DNA from: Acidimicrobiales bacterium
GTDB taxonomy: Bacteria; Actinomycetota; Acidimicrobiia; Acidimicrobiales; Iamiaceae
Assembly: GCA_025463365.1 (NCBI GenBank)
Contig: JAOBWM010000027.1
Span: forward strand, 1-32,180
Length of the DNA stretch: 32,180 bases
Direction of reading: 5' to 3'
The position numbers and the translations under genes are program-made. Shown here piece after piece: positions 6,087 through 16,344 of this stretch. The notes beneath the pieces were generated by a model. It saw only the letters and a program-made list of their open reading frames with translations, was not told the origin of the DNA and searched no databases. Positions within the stretch are counted from its first letter, which is position 1, and every line of letters starts with the position of its first letter.

Positions 6087-6854
6087 ATGCGAGACGCCCT
6101 CGGCGACGTGCAGTCCGTCCTCGTGCTCGGCGGCGGTTCCGAGATCGCCGTCGCAACGGTCAAGCAGCTGGCCAAGGGTCGCTGCCGCACGGCCGTGCTC
6201 GCTGGCCGCGACCTCGCCAAGCTCGCCGCGGTCGCTGACGACCTCCGGGCCGCCGGCCTCGCCACCGTCGACGTCGTCGCGTTCGATGCCGCCCAGCCCG
6301 ACACCCATGCTGCGGTCATCGCCAAGGTCTGGGCAGATCATCCGGATCTCGACGTGGTGCTCCTCGCGTTCGGCGTGCTCGGCGACCAGGCCGCGTTCGA
6401 TGCCGATCCGGCGGCAGCAGCCCAGGCCGCCGTGACCAACTACGCCGGCGCCGTGTCGGCCGGCCTGGCCGTGGCCGGCCACCTCGAAGGTCAGGGCCAC
6501 GGCACCTTGGCCGTGATCTCCTCGGTCGCCGGCGAACGCGCCCGCGCCGACAACTTCGTGTACGGCTCCACCAAGGCCGGGCTCGATGCCTTCGCCCAGG
6601 GGCTCGGCGACCGGCTGGCCGGCTCGGGCGCGTCGGTGCTCGTGGTCCGGCCCGGCTTCGTGCGGACCGCGATGACCGCCCACATGGACGACGGGCCCAT
6701 GGCGACCACCGCCGAGGCCGTCGCCACCGACATCGTCACCGGCATCCAGAAGGGCGCCCACACCGTGTGGTCGCCGGCCAAGCTCCGCTACGTCTTCGCC
6801 GTGCTTCGCCACCTCCCGCGGCCGGTCTGGCGCAAGGTCGCCGCCTCCCGCTGA
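6087..6854 (+). CDS. dprE2: decaprenylphosphoryl-2-keto-beta-D-erythro-pentose reductase (DprE2-like SDR)
   Basis: DprE2 performs the NADH-dependent second half of the epimerisation of decaprenylphosphoryl-ribose to decaprenylphosphoryl-arabinose, the donor for cell-wall arabinan. The 255-residue product is a short-chain dehydrogenase with the unusual DprE2-style nucleotide motif LGGGSEIA near residue 15. It also has NYAGAVS around residue 118 and the Ser145/146-Tyr159-Lys163 catalytic set (ISSVAGERARADNFVYGSTKAG). The C-terminal stretch LRYVFAVLRHLPRPVWRK closely follows what I recall of mycobacterial DprE2 (Rv3791). The start is ATG 6087 with CAGGAG upstream. Its partner oxidase DprE1 is not in the window, but DPPR synthase is 1.4 kb downstream, which supports the assignment. 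Confidence 0.85.
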   Translation: MRDALGDVQSVLVLGGGSEIAVATVKQLAKGRCRTAVLAGRDLAKLAAVADDLRAAGLATVDVVAFDAAQPDTHAAVIAKVWADHPDLDVVLLAFGVLGDQAAFDADPAAAAQAAVTNYAGAVSAGLAVAGHLEGQGHGTLAVISSVAGERARADNFVYGSTKAGLDAFAQGLGDRLAGSGASVLVVRPGFVRTAMTAHMDDGPMATTAEAVATDIVTGIQKGAHTVWSPAKLRYVFAVLRHLPRPVWRKVAASR

Positions 6855-6880
6855 ACCCCGGGTCCGCGGAGGCCGGGTGA

Positions 6881-6886
6881 TACCGT
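6881..6886 (+). promoter_or_regulatory. candidate -10 (TACCGT) for the nucleotide-sugar dehydrogenase
   Basis: The box lies 39 bases before GTG 6926. This would give a short leader containing the GGGGAGGGGG ribosome site at 6911-6920, which selects the GTG over the out-of-frame ATG at 6921. Confidence 0.3.
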
Positions 6887-6925
6887 CATCATCCGCCGCA
6901 CGGGCAACCAGGGGAGGGGGATGTC

Positions 6926-8209
6926 GTGAGCGCCAGCTCCGAGAAGGCCGAGCGAGTCGTCGTCATCGGTCAGGGGTACGTCGGACTGCCACTGGCCGTC
7001 CGAGCCGCCGAGCAGGGCTACGACGTCCTCGGCTACGACCTCGACAAGGCCAGGATCGGCCAACTCGCATCGGGCTCCTCCTACATCGAGGACATCCCCG
7101 ACGAGCGCCTGGCCGCCGTCGTGGCCAGCGGGCGCTTCCACGCCAGCTCGGACCCGGAGGACCTCGCCGACTTCGACATCGCCGTCATCTCGGTGCCCAC
7201 GCCGCTGCGCGAGGGATCCCCCGACCTCAGCTACATCGAGTCGTCGGCCGAGGAGCTCTCCCGCCACTTGCGGCCGGGTGCCTGCGTCATCCTCGAATCG
7301 ACCACCTACCCGGGTACCACCGAGGAACTGGTCGCTCCTCTGCTCGAGGACGGCAGCGGCCTGAAGGCCGGACCGGACTTCCACCTGGGCTACAGCCCCG
7401 AGCGCATCGACCCGGGCAACGCGACCTACACCCTGGAGACCACGCCGAAGGTCGTGTCAGGCATCGATCCCGAGAGCCTCGAACGGGTCAAGGGCTTCTA
7501 CGACCGGATCGTGACGACGACGGTGCCGGTGCGCTCGCCGAAGGAGGCGGAGCTCACCAAGCTGCTGGAGAACACGTTCCGCCACGTCAACATCGCCCTC
7601 GTCAACGAGCTCGCGATGTTCGCCCGCGACCTCGGGATCGACATCTGGGAAGCGATCGATGCCGCCGAGAGCAAGCCCTTCGGCTTCATGCCGTTCCGCC
7701 CCGGTCCGGGCGTCGGCGGCCACTGCCTGCCGATCGACCCCTCGTACCTGTCGTGGCGCGTCAAGCAGTCGCTCGGGCAGACCTTCCGCTTCGTGGAGCT
7801 CGCCAACGAGGTCAACGAGCACATGCCGGACTACGTCGTGCGGCGGCTCGTGGTGGCGCTCAACGAGCGCGGCCTGCCCGTCAACGGCCGTCGCATCCTG
7901 GTGCTCGGCCTCGCGTACAAGCGCAACACGGGCGACGATCGCGAGTCCCCCAGCACGCGGATCATCGAGCTGCTGACGGAACTGAAGGCCGACGTCGCCG
8001 TGGCCGACCCACACGTCGATCCCGACCGCAGCCACGCCACCGCCACCGCCGAGCGCGTCGAGGTCACCGCAGATGAGGTCCGCAGGGCCGACGCGGTGTT
8101 GGTCCTCGTCGACCATGACGGCTTCGATCTCGAGATGGTCAGTCGCGAAGCCAGCTACGTCTTCGACACCCGTCGCTGCGTGACCGGCCCCGCCGTCGAA
8201 CACCTCTGA
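6926..8209 (+). CDS. nucleotide-sugar 6-dehydrogenase (UDP-GlcNAc/UDP-ManNAc or UDP-glucose type)
   Basis: This cytoplasmic NAD-dependent enzyme oxidises C6 of a UDP-sugar twice to give a uronic acid for surface polysaccharide. The 427-residue product has the N-terminal Rossmann motif VIGQGYVGLPLA, the substrate segment YSPERIDPGN, the conserved Lys212 in AELTKLLENTFRHVN, the catalytic Cys267 in GVGGHCLPIDP and a C-terminal NAD-like domain with LGLAYKRNTGDDRESPS. The VGLPLA and PERIDPGN style fits the WbpA/VipA group (UDP-N-acetylhexosamine dehydrogenases) better than plain UDP-glucose dehydrogenase. Substrate remains inference. It lies between dprE2 and the DPPR synthase gene on the same strand, 71 and 54 bases apart. 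Confidence 0.92.
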   Translation: MSASSEKAERVVVIGQGYVGLPLAVRAAEQGYDVLGYDLDKARIGQLASGSSYIEDIPDERLAAVVASGRFHASSDPEDLADFDIAVISVPTPLREGSPDLSYIESSAEELSRHLRPGACVILESTTYPGTTEELVAPLLEDGSGLKAGPDFHLGYSPERIDPGNATYTLETTPKVVSGIDPESLERVKGFYDRIVTTTVPVRSPKEAELTKLLENTFRHVNIALVNELAMFARDLGIDIWEAIDAAESKPFGFMPFRPGPGVGGHCLPIDPSYLSWRVKQSLGQTFRFVELANEVNEHMPDYVVRRLVVALNERGLPVNGRRILVLGLAYKRNTGDDRESPSTRIIELLTELKADVAVADPHVDPDRSHATATAERVEVTADEVRRADAVLVLVDHDGFDLEMVSREASYVFDTRRCVTGPAVEHL

Positions 8210-8251
8210 CCCGACGAGCTCGCGGTGCGGTGGGCCGACGAGCCAGCCGCC

Positions 8252-8257
8252 TAACCT
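8252..8257 (+). promoter_or_regulatory. candidate leaderless -10 (TAACCT) for DPPR synthase
   Basis: TAACCT ends 6 nt before ATG 8264 and no Shine-Dalgarno sequence is present, the usual geometry of a leaderless actinobacterial start. Confidence 0.4.
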
Positions 8258-8263
8258 GCGCGG

Positions 8264-9217
8264 ATGCCCAGCGACGAGCCCGTTCCCCCTTCGCCGCGCT
8301 CGCTCCCCAAGGCCCTGCTGGTGGAGGCACGACCCAAGCAGTGGCTCAAGAACCTGCTGGTGTTCGCGGCGCCGGGCGCAGCCGGGGTGGCTGGGCAGGC
8401 GAAGCCGTTCCTGCAGAGCCTCGCCGCGTTCGGGTGCTTCTGCCTCGCCGCCGCCGGCACCTACTACCTGAACGACGCGGCCGACGTCGAGGCCGACCGC
8501 CTCCACCCGAAGAAGCGGTTCCGCCCGATCGCAGCCGGTGAGATCCCACTCGGCCTGGCGCGCGTGCTCGGGGCCTCCGGGATCGTGGTCGCGGTGGCGG
8601 CCGCGTTCCTCGTCAACTGGCACCTCGCCGTGGTGGTGGCCTGCTACGTCGGGCTCACCACCACCTACAGCCTCTGGCTCAAGCACGTCGCCGTGGTCGA
8701 TGTCGTGGGCGTGGCCGCGGGCTTCGTCCTGCGTGCCATCGCCGGCGGCGCCGCGGTCGATGTGCCCATCTCGAACTGGTTCTTCATCGTGGCGTCGTTC
8801 GGTTCGCTGTTCATGGTCGTGGGCAAGCGGCGTGCCGAGACCGACGAGATGGGCGACGACGCCGCCACGTTCCGCCCCACGCTCGGCGTCTACTCACGCT
8901 CGTACCTCACCCAGCTCCAGACGCTCAGCTCGAGCGTCGTGCTCGTGGGCTACTGCGTGTGGGCCTTCGAGAAGGCCGCAGACCTCCAGTCGCTGCACAC
9001 CCACGACCCGGCCGCGCTGCGCTTCCCCGACATCGCCACGATCCCCTGGTTCCAGTTCACGATCCTGCCGTTCGCGCTGGCGATCCTGCGGTACTCGCTG
9101 CTCATCGACACCGGGCACGGCGGAGCACCGGAGGACGTGATCTTGAAGGACCGGCCCCTCCAGGCGATGGCTCTCGTGTGGGCGGCGGTGTTCGCCGTCG
9201 GCGTCTACGTGAAGTGA
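8264..9217 (+). CDS. ubiA: decaprenyl-phosphate phosphoribosyltransferase (DPPR synthase), UbiA family
   Basis: DPPR synthase joins 5-phosphoribosyl pyrophosphate to decaprenyl phosphate, the first lipid-linked step towards the arabinan donor. The 317-residue product is a multi-helix UbiA-family membrane enzyme. Its first metal/diphosphate motif NDAADVEADRLHPKKRFRP (Asn70, Asp71, Asp74, Asp78) is followed by PIAAGEIP, as in mycobacterial Rv3806c. Other shared stretches are RPKQWLKNLLVFAAP, LRAIAGG, FGSLFMVVGKR and a C-terminal AILRYSLLIDTG...PEDVILKDRPLQ. The start is ATG 8264. The tandem hairpin-like array downstream separates it from a convergent gene. Together with DprE2 it points to decaprenyl-phosphoryl-pentose synthesis. 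Confidence 0.9.
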   Translation: MPSDEPVPPSPRSLPKALLVEARPKQWLKNLLVFAAPGAAGVAGQAKPFLQSLAAFGCFCLAAAGTYYLNDAADVEADRLHPKKRFRPIAAGEIPLGLARVLGASGIVVAVAAAFLVNWHLAVVVACYVGLTTTYSLWLKHVAVVDVVGVAAGFVLRAIAGGAAVDVPISNWFFIVASFGSLFMVVGKRRAETDEMGDDAATFRPTLGVYSRSYLTQLQTLSSSVVLVGYCVWAFEKAADLQSLHTHDPAALRFPDIATIPWFQFTILPFALAILRYSLLIDTGHGGAPEDVILKDRPLQAMALVWAAVFAVGVYVK

Positions 9218-9225
9218 CGCCTGGG

Positions 9226-9270
9226 GTCGCCAGCTGGCGGGTCGCCTGCTGGCGCGTCGCCTGCTGGCGG
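9226..9270. repeat. three tandem 15-bp units between convergent stop codons
   Basis: The units at 9226-9240, 9241-9255 and 9256-9270 have the form GTCGCC(A/T)GCTGGCG(G/C). The first contains the perfect palindrome CGCCAGCTGGCG; the others keep GCC...GGC arms. The array almost fills the 57-base gap between the stops of the DPPR synthase gene (9217) and the dehydratase gene (9275). It could therefore serve as a bidirectional terminator or transcription barrier, though it has no U-tract. Confidence 0.75.
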
Positions 9271-9274
9271 GTCC

Positions 9275-11143
9275 TCAGTCGACCGGGCCGACCGCCCTGC
9301 TGGGCTCGACGAGCACGTCGCACGCCGCACGGAGCTCGGCGACGGTCTCGTGGTCGGTGGCGCGGGCCCGGGCCACGGGTAGCTCCGACGTGGGCAGCGG
9401 GGGCACCCGGACGTGGTGGATCCGCGGGTGGCACGGCGACTCGCCGGCCTCGCCGGTGCCGAACAGCACCTCGTGCATCTTCTCGCCCTGGCGCATGCCC
9501 GTGTAGACGATCTCGATCGGGCGGTCGCTCTCGGCGATGAGCCGGCGGGCGACGTCGTCGATCTTCACGGGCTCGCCCATGTCGAGCACGAGCGCCTCGC
9601 CCGGGCGGCCGACGGCGCCCGCCTGGATGACCAGTTGGACGGCCTCCTCGACGGTCATGAAGTACCGCGTGACGTCGGGGTGGGTGACCGTGACCGGACC
9701 GCCGCCTTCGATCTGCTTGGCGAACGCGGTGAGCACCGATCCACGGCTGCCCAGCACGTTGCCGAAGCGGACGCTGAGGAAGGCACCGCTGCCCTGGCTC
9801 GTGGCATCGGCGGTGAGCCGTTCGGCCAGCCGCTTCGAGTAGCCCAGCACGCTGCAGGGGTCGGCCGCCTTGTCGGTGGAGATGTTGACGAAGCGCTCGA
9901 CCCCGCACGCGAGGGACGCGTCGACGAGGATCCGCGTGCCCCAGACGTTGGTCTTGAGCGCTTCCTGCGGGTGCATCTCCAACAACGGGAGGTGCTTGAG
10001 CGCCGCCGCGTGGAACACCACCTCTGGCCGGTGCTCCTCGAAGATGCGGGCCACACCGTCGCGGTCGCGGATGTCGCACACCACCAGGTTGCGGCTGTCG
10101 AGCAGGGCCCGGCCCTCGATGGAGAGCTGGACGGCGTGGAGGGCCGACTCGTCGCGGTCGAGCAGGATCAGGCTCGACGGGGCGAACCGGTAGAGCTGGC
10201 GGCTGAGCTCCGAGCCGATCGATCCGCCGGCACCGGTGACGAGCACCCGTTTGCCGGTGACGTAGCCGGCGATCGAGTCGACGTCGGTGTCGACCTCGTG
10301 GCGCCCGAGGAGGTCGGCGTGGGTGACCGGCCGGATGTCGGACGTGCTCAGCTGGGCGCCGTAGAGCTCGCTCGACGACGGCAGCACGAGCAGCCGCATC
10401 CCCGCCTCACGAGCCAGGTCGGCGAACTCGCGGATGATGGTGGAGTCGGCGGTGGGGATGGCCACCAGGGCCACCTTCGCGTTGCTCTGGGCCGCCACGT
10501 GGGCGAGGTCGGCGCGCCCACCGCTGACGCGGACGCCGCGGATGCGCAGGTTCCGCTTGAGCGGGTCGTCGTCGATGAGGGCGACGGGCAGGAACCGTCC
10601 GCTCGGGTTGCGCAGCATCGCCGTGATGATCTGCTGGCCGGCCTCGCCGGCACCGATCACGACGAGCGGCTCGAGCACGTCGCCCGTGGGCCGGAGCTTG
10701 CGCTCGTAGAACAGCCGCCACAGGTAGCGCACGCCGGCGGTCAGCGCGAGGACGATCGTGCTCGCGATCAACGGCACGGACTGCGGCACCGGACGGCCGA
10801 ACAGCAGGTCCGAGACCCACATGATCAAGGTGACGAAGACGATGGCGCTGACCAGCGCCGACACCTCCTCGAACGAGCCGAAGCTCCAGCGGCCGGCGTA
10901 GAGGCCACGCAGGGCGCCGCAGAGCACGAAGACCGTCGCCGCCGCAAGGGCGAAGTACGCAAAGTCGGAGTACTTGCGGCTCGGGATCTCGAAGTCGTAG
11001 CGGAGCGCTCCGGCCAAGACGACGGACACGCACATGACCGAGGCGTCGGCGACGACCTGCAGGCGTCGACGAGTGCGCACACTCGACAACAACACCATCA
11101 CGCCCGGTTTGCGGCGCTGGATGTCTTGCTGTTCTGCCGTCAA
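9275..11143 (-). CDS. membrane-bound NDP-sugar 4,6-dehydratase/epimerase (WbpM/PglF/CapD family)
   Basis: Such enzymes convert UDP-GlcNAc to a 4-keto-6-deoxy sugar, which feeds diacetamido-sugar or capsule pathways. The 622-residue product begins with about four membrane helices (roughly residues 30-150). A first Rossmann-like domain follows (VVIGAGEAGQQI), then the catalytic SDR domain (VTGAGGSIGSELSRQL, HAAALKHLPLLE, STDKAADPCSVLGYSK, RFGNVLGSRGSV). The catalytic position that is Met in WbpM and Tyr in short homologs is Leu433 here, four residues before Lys437. TTG 11143 is taken as the start because GGGGGGAGGG lies directly upstream; ATG 11098 is the alternative. The frame stays open far upstream, but that part overlaps the divergent DUF4012 gene and is not believable. 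Confidence 0.88.
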   Translation of the reverse strand: MTAEQQDIQRRKPGVMVLLSSVRTRRRLQVVADASVMCVSVVLAGALRYDFEIPSRKYSDFAYFALAAATVFVLCGALRGLYAGRWSFGSFEEVSALVSAIVFVTLIMWVSDLLFGRPVPQSVPLIASTIVLALTAGVRYLWRLFYERKLRPTGDVLEPLVVIGAGEAGQQIITAMLRNPSGRFLPVALIDDDPLKRNLRIRGVRVSGGRADLAHVAAQSNAKVALVAIPTADSTIIREFADLAREAGMRLLVLPSSSELYGAQLSTSDIRPVTHADLLGRHEVDTDVDSIAGYVTGKRVLVTGAGGSIGSELSRQLYRFAPSSLILLDRDESALHAVQLSIEGRALLDSRNLVVCDIRDRDGVARIFEEHRPEVVFHAAALKHLPLLEMHPQEALKTNVWGTRILVDASLACGVERFVNISTDKAADPCSVLGYSKRLAERLTADATSQGSGAFLSVRFGNVLGSRGSVLTAFAKQIEGGGPVTVTHPDVTRYFMTVEEAVQLVIQAGAVGRPGEALVLDMGEPVKIDDVARRLIAESDRPIEIVYTGMRQGEKMHEVLFGTGEAGESPCHPRIHHVRVPPLPTSELPVARARATDHETVAELRAACDVLVEPSRAVGPVD

Positions 11144-15666: not shown

Positions 15667-16344
15667 ATGCCCGCCCTGCCTCCGATGCCCCCGATGCCTT
15701 CACCCTCCGGCCAGCCCGGTCGACCCGGCCGACGCATCGCGGCCTTCGACTTCGACGGCACGCTCACGCATCGCGACACGTTGCTGCCGTTCCTCGTCCG
15801 CGCCTTCGGCGCCCGTCGCGTCGCCGGGGCCGTCTCTCGCGTGGCTCCGCTGGCCGCGCGGGCCCGGATCGGTCGGCTCGAAGCAGAGCTCCACCACCGC
15901 GACGCGACCAAGGGTGCACTCCTCCGCCACCTCGTCGCCGGTCGGTCGGCCGACTGGCTGGCGTCCGAGGGCGAGTCGTTCGCCACCACCCTCGTCGCTC
16001 GCCTGCGCCCGCAGATGGTCGAGCAGGTGCAGCGGCACCGAGACGCCGGCCACGAGCTGGTGATCGTGTCCGCCGGGCTGCACGCCTACCTCGACCCGTT
16101 CGCCGCTGCCGAGGGCTTCGACCACGTGATCGCGGTCGGCCTCGCGACGAGCGATGACGGCCGCCTCACGGGAGCCCTCGACGGCCCCAACGTGCGCGGC
16201 CCGGAGAAGGCCGTCCGCTTCCGGGCCTGGCTCGGCGACGACGCACCCGAGACGCTCTGGGCCTACGGCAACTCGAGCGGCGACGCCGAACTGCTCGCGA
16301 TGGCCGACGTCCCGGTGTGGGTCGCGGGCCCAAACGCCCGCTGA
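15667..16344 (+). CDS. HAD-superfamily subfamily IB phosphatase
   Basis: The 225-residue cytoplasmic hydrolase has the nucleophile motif AFDFDGTLT (Asp28, Asp30), the Ser motif VIVSAGL, the conserved Lys in GPEKAVRF and the acidic motif GNSSGDAELLAMA. The helical cap between motifs I and II and this spacing match HAD-IB (phosphoserine-phosphatase-like) enzymes of the TIGR01490 sort, which act on phosphomonoesters. The actual substrate is unknown. The first 20 residues are Pro/Met-rich and probably disordered; an internal start is possible but none is marked by a ribosome site. It converges on the SDR gene with a 16-base gap. Confidence 0.85.
   Translation: MPALPPMPPMPSPSGQPGRPGRRIAAFDFDGTLTHRDTLLPFLVRAFGARRVAGAVSRVAPLAARARIGRLEAELHHRDATKGALLRHLVAGRSADWLASEGESFATTLVARLRPQMVEQVQRHRDAGHELVIVSAGLHAYLDPFAAAEGFDHVIAVGLATSDDGRLTGALDGPNVRGPEKAVRFRAWLGDDAPETLWAYGNSSGDAELLAMADVPVWVAGPNAR

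Follow-up and report, generated by a model that had tools for sequence, protein, structure and literature searches.

A polyprenyl-phospho-arabinofuranose pathway predicted in an Acidimicrobiales genome, with a candidate HAD-IB phosphatase and dprE1 on a separate contig

Donor pathway genes in the window and in related genomes

The stretch of DNA analysed here, referred to as the window, is the whole of contig C31 (32,180 nucleotides) of a 4,308,786-base draft genome in 219 contigs (98.42% complete, 2.65% contamination), and it carries genes of the kind that mycobacteria use to make lipid-bound arabinose for the cell wall. The host most likely belongs to the order Acidimicrobiales. It does not look mycobacterial, as the original prediction, made from the sequence of the window, had already supposed. 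What the window and the rest of the genome encode is a known pathway in a lineage for which the literature searched gave no report of it, with three departures: a candidate phosphatase of the haloacid dehalogenase (HAD) type, a dprE1 gene that is moved and probably displaced, and a relative of the arabinosyltransferase AftB that is accompanied neither by a match to AftA nor by an Emb match above cut-off. The genes at the centre of the analysis are listed below; G, C, L and f numbers designate genomes, contigs, loci and families.

6087..6854, + strand: dprE2 (NF053786, 311.4 bits, cut-off 250; PDB 21gq, E 1e-55)
6926..8209, + strand: nucleotide-sugar dehydrogenase (TIGR03026, 421 bits, cut-off 189.8), directly 5' of ubiA in L119-L124
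8264..9217, + strand: ubiA, encoding DPPR synthase (NF008978, 352 bits, cut-off 207; PDB 8j8j, E 1.1e-62)
15694..16344, + strand: HAD-IB phosphatase (TIGR01490, 129.6 bits, cut-off 98.3)
C183:25401-26765 (L003:11402-12766), - strand: dprE1 (NF053785, 592.8 bits, cut-off 500; DprE1 structures at about 1e-122)

DprE2-like and DPPR-synthase-like proteins in one block with a nucleotide-sugar dehydrogenase had been recognized in the original prediction, and all three score above the cut-offs of their models, with matches far beyond chance. The ATG of dprE2 at 6087 sits within a longer open frame. For the encoded protein the next best model of a short-chain dehydrogenase/reductase (SDR) reached 217.5 bits, below its own cut-off of 267, and the DprE2 structure 21gq is its sole solved relative at E 1e-15 or better; these scores establish it as DprE2, by homology the reductase of polyprenyl-phospho-2-keto-erythro-pentofuranose, which acts in the second half of the epimerisation. 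The UbiA protein aligns over residues 4-312 with the decaprenyl-phosphate phosphoribosyltransferase 8j8j, the DVEADRxHPxKRFRPIAAG stretch being kept, which by sequence identifies it as a polyprenyl-phosphate 5-phosphoribosyltransferase of the UbiA superfamily. A role as 4-hydroxybenzoate or menaquinone prenyltransferase is ruled out, given that the respective models score below 25 bits. Within the genus the dehydrogenase gene keeps its place beside ubiA; its product does not catalyse a step of the arabinose-donor pathway. Compared with same-genus proteins, UbiA is 62-73% identical, DprE2 73-77% (in two genomes) and the dehydrogenase 78-83%, and in a quick tree of 48 of 90 UbiA rows (selected loci, at least 88% coverage, no stop) the host UbiA lies within the genus clade with an SH-aLRT support of 89; G253 and G255 were left out of this tree because the translated match held a stop.

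Across 246 genomes drawn from the phylum, 60 matched NF008978 above cut-off, including 15 of the 17 genomes of the same order (the host among them) and one of the five genomes of the class outside the order; eight of 14 control genomes gave a match, one of them above cut-off. When the host and 40 relatives were searched, UbiA exceeded the cut-off in 29 of the 41 genomes, namely 20 of the 24 of the host family and nine of the 17 others of the order, a split counted by hand. DprE1 was above cut-off in 22 of the 41 and reached at least 247 bits in 27, all of which have UbiA above cut-off. Fifteen relatives (14 of the order and one of the class) were fetched around ubiA, and in 14 of them ubiA, dprE1 and dprE2 lie together within 5 kb, while in the fifteenth (G220) ubiA and dprE1 are followed by the contig end; five of the six f2 loci of this set have a methyltransferase gene separating ubiA from dprE1. 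Given the two draws of genomes (15/17 and 29/41), the pathway appears ordinary for such a host, and the donor genes are widespread in Acidimicrobiales without occurring in every genome.

Streptomyces and Actinacidiphila also have DprE1 relatives, at 55-58% identity. One record titled Thermoanaerobacterales bacterium (L156, PKRH01000017.1) carries a dprE2-ubiA-dprE1 cluster that groups with Acidimicrobiales rows in both the DprE1 and the UbiA tree, and is possibly misnamed. In the literature searched we found neither a report of DprE1 or of the decaprenyl-phospho-arabinose (DPA) pathway in Acidimicrobiales nor wall-sugar data for Acidimicrobiia, and the text available of PMC6113628 gives none.

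The HAD-IB protein and the neighbouring polysaccharide block

A phosphatase for the phosphoribosyl intermediate had been taken as absent from the window. It is true that no PAP2 (Rv3807c-type) match came up in a scan covering part of the window proteins, and that the genome was not searched for PF01569; nevertheless, the HAD-IB protein at 15694-16344 offers a candidate for this step. Its catalytic motifs (DxDxT, S, K and D) are intact, and all 23 rows of the alignment share D19, D21, T23, S126, K172 and D197.

Linkage of relatives of this gene with the donor genes is established in several families. They directly adjoin ubiA in L034, L036, L038, L041, L043, L112 and L138 and dprE2 in L048, L110 and L111, the families concerned being f2, f7, f67, f69, f70 and f76, with varying gene order; in L036 the HAD gene overlaps ubiA by 4 bp. 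In a phmmer search of 1631 called locus proteins, all matches of at least 98.5 bits came from ubiA or dprE1 loci or from L116, L118, L127 and L128, whose contigs have neither ubiA nor dprE1 and carry the HAD gene next to further genes of the genus block, while other HAD-IB proteins reached at most 60.2 bits. Because the presence of dprE1 or ubiA was the reason for selecting most of the loci, it is the score gap that is informative here and not the linkage count. A profile of 23 rows (A1), to which many of the 20 positive genomes had themselves contributed, found a member in 20 of the 41 genomes (at least 176 bits; next 102). The clade was present in 19 of 29 genomes with UbiA versus one of 12 without (Fisher p 0.0014, relatedness ignored), and the lone UbiA-negative genome with it, G246, is a 540-contig draft.

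A Ruegeria plasmid (NZ_CP065364.1) encodes a HAD-UbiA fusion (NF006088, 629.7 bits, cut-off 351) followed by genes annotated as GtrA, FAD-binding oxidoreductase and SDR; the HAD part of the fusion matches TIGR01490 weakly (28.4 bits). According to the portion of PMC11127046 that bears on this step, the Citrobacter phosphoribose synthase carries a HAD phosphatase domain, and Rv3807c is unrelated to the HAD phosphatases. The Ruegeria fusion and the Citrobacter domain together support a coupling of HAD and UbiA functions. Judging from motifs and gene neighbourhood, the window protein is probably the 5-phosphatase of the pathway, with polyprenyl-phospho-5-phosphoribose as its presumed substrate.

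The strongest competing explanation accepts that lipid-linked arabinose is made but gives the dephosphorylation to a PAP2 or general phosphatase, leaving the HAD protein to another sugar step of the polysaccharide block. We hold this to be a possibility of a lesser order, though one to be taken seriously. Ten of the 29 UbiA-positive genomes lack the HAD clade, G262 (L136) has kept dprE2-ubiA-dprE1 with no HAD gene between yfcH and the SDR gene, and the gene that precedes ubiA in Rhodococcus ruber bears the annotation PAP2 phosphatase. Set against this, several families of differing gene order have HAD genes immediately adjoining ubiA or dprE2, no PAP2 match was seen among those window proteins that were scanned (not all of them), and HAD is fused to UbiA in Ruegeria.

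An Acidimicrobiia draft (L152:8046-12431) has a HAD gene followed by two large membrane proteins of GT-C glycosyltransferase size on the same strand, and these genes are a candidate donor-plus-transferase operon.

Two further features lie between ubiA and the HAD gene of the window:

9275..11098, - strand: CapD-type nucleotide-sugar 4,6-dehydratase (PF02719, 329.5 bits), which flanks the block in L120, L121, L123, L124 and L127
11289..13538 (start 11160 or 11289), + strand: DUF4012 membrane protein (PF13196, 118 bits), conserved in the genus block

The AlphaFold model of the DUF4012 protein has a mean pLDDT of 78.8. A Foldseek search with it gave nothing at E of 0.001 or lower, and VIA-align aligned mostly the C-terminal beta part, the best match being 4g2a (Z 12.7, root-mean-square deviation 2.8, 161 aligned) and OST chains standing at about Z 10. 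The window also encodes an LPXTG-like protein that, at 19.8 bits, is just under the cut-off of 20. The dehydrogenase, CapD-type dehydratase, DUF4012 protein, LPXTG-like protein, YfcH and a YkuD transpeptidase recur around ubiA and the HAD gene in the genus, a content that suggests a wall-linked polysaccharide locus.

Position and ancestry of dprE1

That DprE1 is missing, as originally predicted, holds for the window but not for the genome: a PF04030 scan found one place, the gene on C183, so loss of DprE1 from the genome is ruled out. Its model score and solved relatives (listed above) establish the protein as DprE1. In all 60 DprE1 rows compared, KNHHS keeps its histidine and AKDSR its lysine. 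At the position of the benzothiazinone-binding cysteine (Cys387) of M. tuberculosis DprE1, the C183 protein has Asn (the 60 rows hold Ala 44, Ser 7, Thr 7, Asn 1 and Cys 1).

In all nine same-genus genomes where both genes are visible (G247, G248 and G250-G256), dprE1 adjoins ubiA. The corresponding slot of the window is demonstrably empty:

9218..9274, no strand: gap at the genus dprE1 slot, 57 bp between the end of ubiA (9217) and capD (9275)

A 15-bp tandem repeat in 3.3 copies occupies 9224-9273, exactly where the genus dprE1 is missing; this array is missing from six same-genus loci, although a stray single copy of the unit occurs in each of two of them. Judging by G250 (L126, L127), in which the dehydrogenase gene is followed directly by capD and ubiA-dprE1 stand together on another contig, the slot behind the dehydrogenase and ubiA seems prone to rearrangement. 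A second, frame-broken copy of the block was seen at the end of the one contig that makes up G248 (L124, L125), possibly an uncorrected overlap of contig ends.

The host DprE1 is 53-57% identical to seven full-length rows of the genus, and 52% and 62% identical to two cut rows. The DprE1 tree was built from 60 rows of 85 loci with a match (selected loci, at least 90% coverage, no stop); repeat fetches were dropped (L139 = L134), the identical pair L110/L155 was kept, and there was no mycobacterial DprE1 among the loci. In this tree the host protein stands beside G282, which has a long branch, outside the rows of its genus and family, while the DprE1 of G250 falls within the genus clade. Constraining the host and genus proteins to one clade cost 46.9 log units, with p 0.012 in the approximately unbiased (AU) test; without four long rows the cost was 36.4 (p 0.0009) and the nearest row was G134, of another family, so that the odd position of the host DprE1 is established under both samplings. 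Because DprE1 lies outside the genus clade while UbiA lies inside it, the native dprE1 was probably lost from behind ubiA and replaced by the DprE1 of another lineage, the incoming copy being either a transferred gene or an ancient paralogue.

Two objections to this displacement have about the same, small, probability. One is that the C183 DprE1 is an ordinary vertical gene of the genus that has moved and evolved fast. The case of G250, where ubiA-dprE1 moved without replacement and DprE1 is still in the genus clade, is a precedent, but the AU tests reject the union of the host protein with that clade, and we find this account unlikely. The other, equally improbable in our view, is an assembly or binning artefact, in which the true dprE1 would stand behind ubiA and the C183 copy would come from a contaminant; the fragmentation of the draft into 219 contigs, its 2.65% contamination and the short tandem repeat exactly at the junction would be in keeping with it. 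Against such an artefact, C183 carries, at a distance of about 1 kb from dprE1, a gene with 90% and 85% identity to genes of the same-genus genomes G255 and G253; this supports the assignment of C183 to the host genome, and the blastn matches to G255 go further on that side. Furthermore, the DNA from ubiA to capD is continuous on C31, the next best match to the DprE1 model listed in the genome is one of 46 bits, in the same-genus G250 capD comes straight after the dehydrogenase while ubiA-dprE1 lie on a different contig, and the GC content of dprE1 (0.72) is like that of its contig. The blastn matches of C183 to G255 and G253 lie only on the side away from dprE1 and the contigs of these genomes stop within about 1.2 kb beyond, so that the insertion site is not demonstrable.

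Arabinosyltransferases and the proposed pathway

The original prediction would have been contradicted by a genome with no dprE1 or arabinosyltransferase; a DprE1 and an AftB-like protein are both encoded. The AftB model NF041481 matched C142 with 224.7 bits in the genome scan and 266.5 bits for the called protein; the C. glutamicum control also matched, yet likewise under the cut-off of 1050. Homology with AftB is established by the match to the solved AftB 9dlf (7.1e-65), in two stretches that span almost the full length. The active-site residues of McAftB named in the consulted part of PMC12041299 are D62, T91, R221, T243, R372, F448, Y449, T524, D541, R560 and H563; of the first seven, which a hand-counted alignment covered, D62, T91, R221, R372, F448 and Y449 are kept in the host protein and T243 is not placeable. 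Among the 41 genomes, NF041481 matches were found in the host and six others (G255 in pieces). These seven all fall among the 22 genomes with DprE1 above cut-off versus none of the 19 others (p 0.0098); with DprE1 of at least 247 bits the counts are 7 of 27 versus 0 of 14 (p 0.075).

AftA_N (PF12250) had no match in the host genome, while the C. glutamicum control matches, and the best host match to Emb (PF04602), from a gene with no predicted membrane-spanning segments, reached 19.7 bits where the cut-off is 25. On these two results a mycobacterial-type arabinogalactan was rejected and the acceptor should differ, which fits the originally predicted use of the pentose in a different envelope polymer.

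In G280, genes for a GT-C-like protein, HAD, ubiA, dprE1 and dprE2 follow in this order on one strand; the 773-aa membrane protein of this locus matches nothing in the host genome and gave a weak match in G253. As a possible shared arabinosyltransferase, the GT-C-sized membrane proteins encoded next to the operon in L034, L036, L040, L133, L134, L138 and L152 were considered and rejected, since phmmer formed no single family from them; their model matches are absent or mostly weak. On a Rhodococcus ruber plasmid (NZ_CP145323.1, L180:6962-8833), a neighbour of ubiA reaches 785.7 bits with the AftB model (cut-off 1050), and its annotation, 'flagellar motor control protein ZomB', is probably misleading.

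On the evidence of sequence and gene context, we consider it likely that the host makes polyprenyl-phospho-arabinofuranose through a complete donor pathway with a HAD phosphatase, a displaced DprE1 and few arabinosyltransferases, and transfers it by an AftB-like GT-C to an acceptor other than mycobacterial arabinogalactan. The sequence of steps is taken from the chemistry established for these enzyme families. UbiA (8264-9217) would place the 5-phosphoribose of phosphoribosyl pyrophosphate onto polyprenyl phosphate, the HAD-IB protein (15694-16344) would take off the 5-phosphate, DprE1 (C183) would oxidize C2, and DprE2 (6087-6854) would reduce it with inversion, the product being polyprenyl-phospho-beta-D-arabinofuranose (DPA or its undecaprenyl equivalent). 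The donor would presumably be flipped outward, where the AftB-like GT-C (C142) would transfer arabinofuranose onto an envelope glycan that is predicted not to be mycobacterial arabinogalactan. In the host lineage, dprE1 would have been lost from behind ubiA and its function taken over by the other-lineage DprE1 on C183. The operons of the relatives may, we infer, do the same. A pathway "split or altered", as originally proposed, is thus borne out as far as it is physically split, with dprE1 moved and apparently of a different lineage, whereas no donor-pathway enzyme that was searched for is missing. It is very unlikely that the product stops at lipid-linked ribose or 2-keto-pentose, with ribofuranose and not arabinofuranose reaching the polymer, given that DprE1 and DprE2 are both encoded and above their equivalog cut-offs, that their genes lie close to ubiA in relatives and that an AftB homologue is present, even though lipid-linked ribofuranose systems are known (PMC11127046, in the section consulted) and dprE1 and dprE2 are unlinked in the host.

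Several observations weigh against the proposed pathway. The profile search of the 41 genomes did not find the HAD clade in ten of the 29 with UbiA, and at least those would therefore need another phosphatase; in the window the HAD gene is 6.5 kb from ubiA, in G272 it and dprE1 lie on different contigs, and the protein could instead be part of the neighbouring polysaccharide pathway. The AftB-like protein, at 266.5 bits, is far under the curated cut-off of 1050, has counterparts in so few genomes (seven of 41 with the host), is encoded away from the block amid genes that by eye look like housekeeping genes, and may use another donor or acceptor. As for DprE1, an ancient paralogue could stand in place of transfer, and the assembly is a draft of 219 contigs with 2.65% contamination. 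Finally, outside the host family UbiA is above cut-off in nine of 17 genomes of the order.

Anti-tuberculosis drug research is directed at DprE1, DprE2, UbiA and the arabinosyltransferases as targets, and a donor pathway that is a widespread trait of Acidimicrobiales, with an AftB relative in part of the species, would provide outgroups for the evolution of these enzymes; the HAD protein is a candidate for the dephosphorylating enzyme of the order. The pathway predicts arabinose in the envelope of cultured Acidimicrobiales, for example Ilumatobacter. More tentatively, and with rather less than even confidence, we suggest an undescribed arabinofuranose-bearing envelope glycan in Acidimicrobiales that depends on a stand-alone HAD 5-phosphatase, a retaining AftB-type GT-C without AftA or Emb, and a DprE1 swapped for a foreign copy.

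Curated models and solved relatives assign the host UbiA, DprE1 and DprE2 to the families of the mycobacterial DPA pathway (Rv3806c UbiA, Rv3807c, DprE1, DprE2), whereas a HAD-IB candidate stands in place of Rv3807c, dprE1 is unlinked, and Asn replaces the benzothiazinone cysteine. The three-component pentofuranose systems (Kelly et al. 2024, PMC11127046, as far as the portion consulted describes them) similarly combine a phosphoribose synthase and HAD phosphatase with epimerases and an outside-acting GT-C, the epimerases being DprE1/E2 homologues where arabinofuranose is made; in contrast, the HAD of the host is a separate protein and its GT-C is AftB-like and unlinked. With AftB, the terminal beta-(1->2)-arabinofuranosyltransferase (NF041481, 9dlf; PMC12041299, in part), the host protein shares the DD motif and donor- and acceptor-site residues, but it scores 266.5 against 1050 bits and occurs without an AftA match or an Emb match above cut-off. 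Similarly to the HAD-UbiA fusions (NF006088, Ruegeria), a HAD phosphatase appears coupled to a DPPR-synthase-like domain, but in Acidimicrobiales these are two separate proteins.

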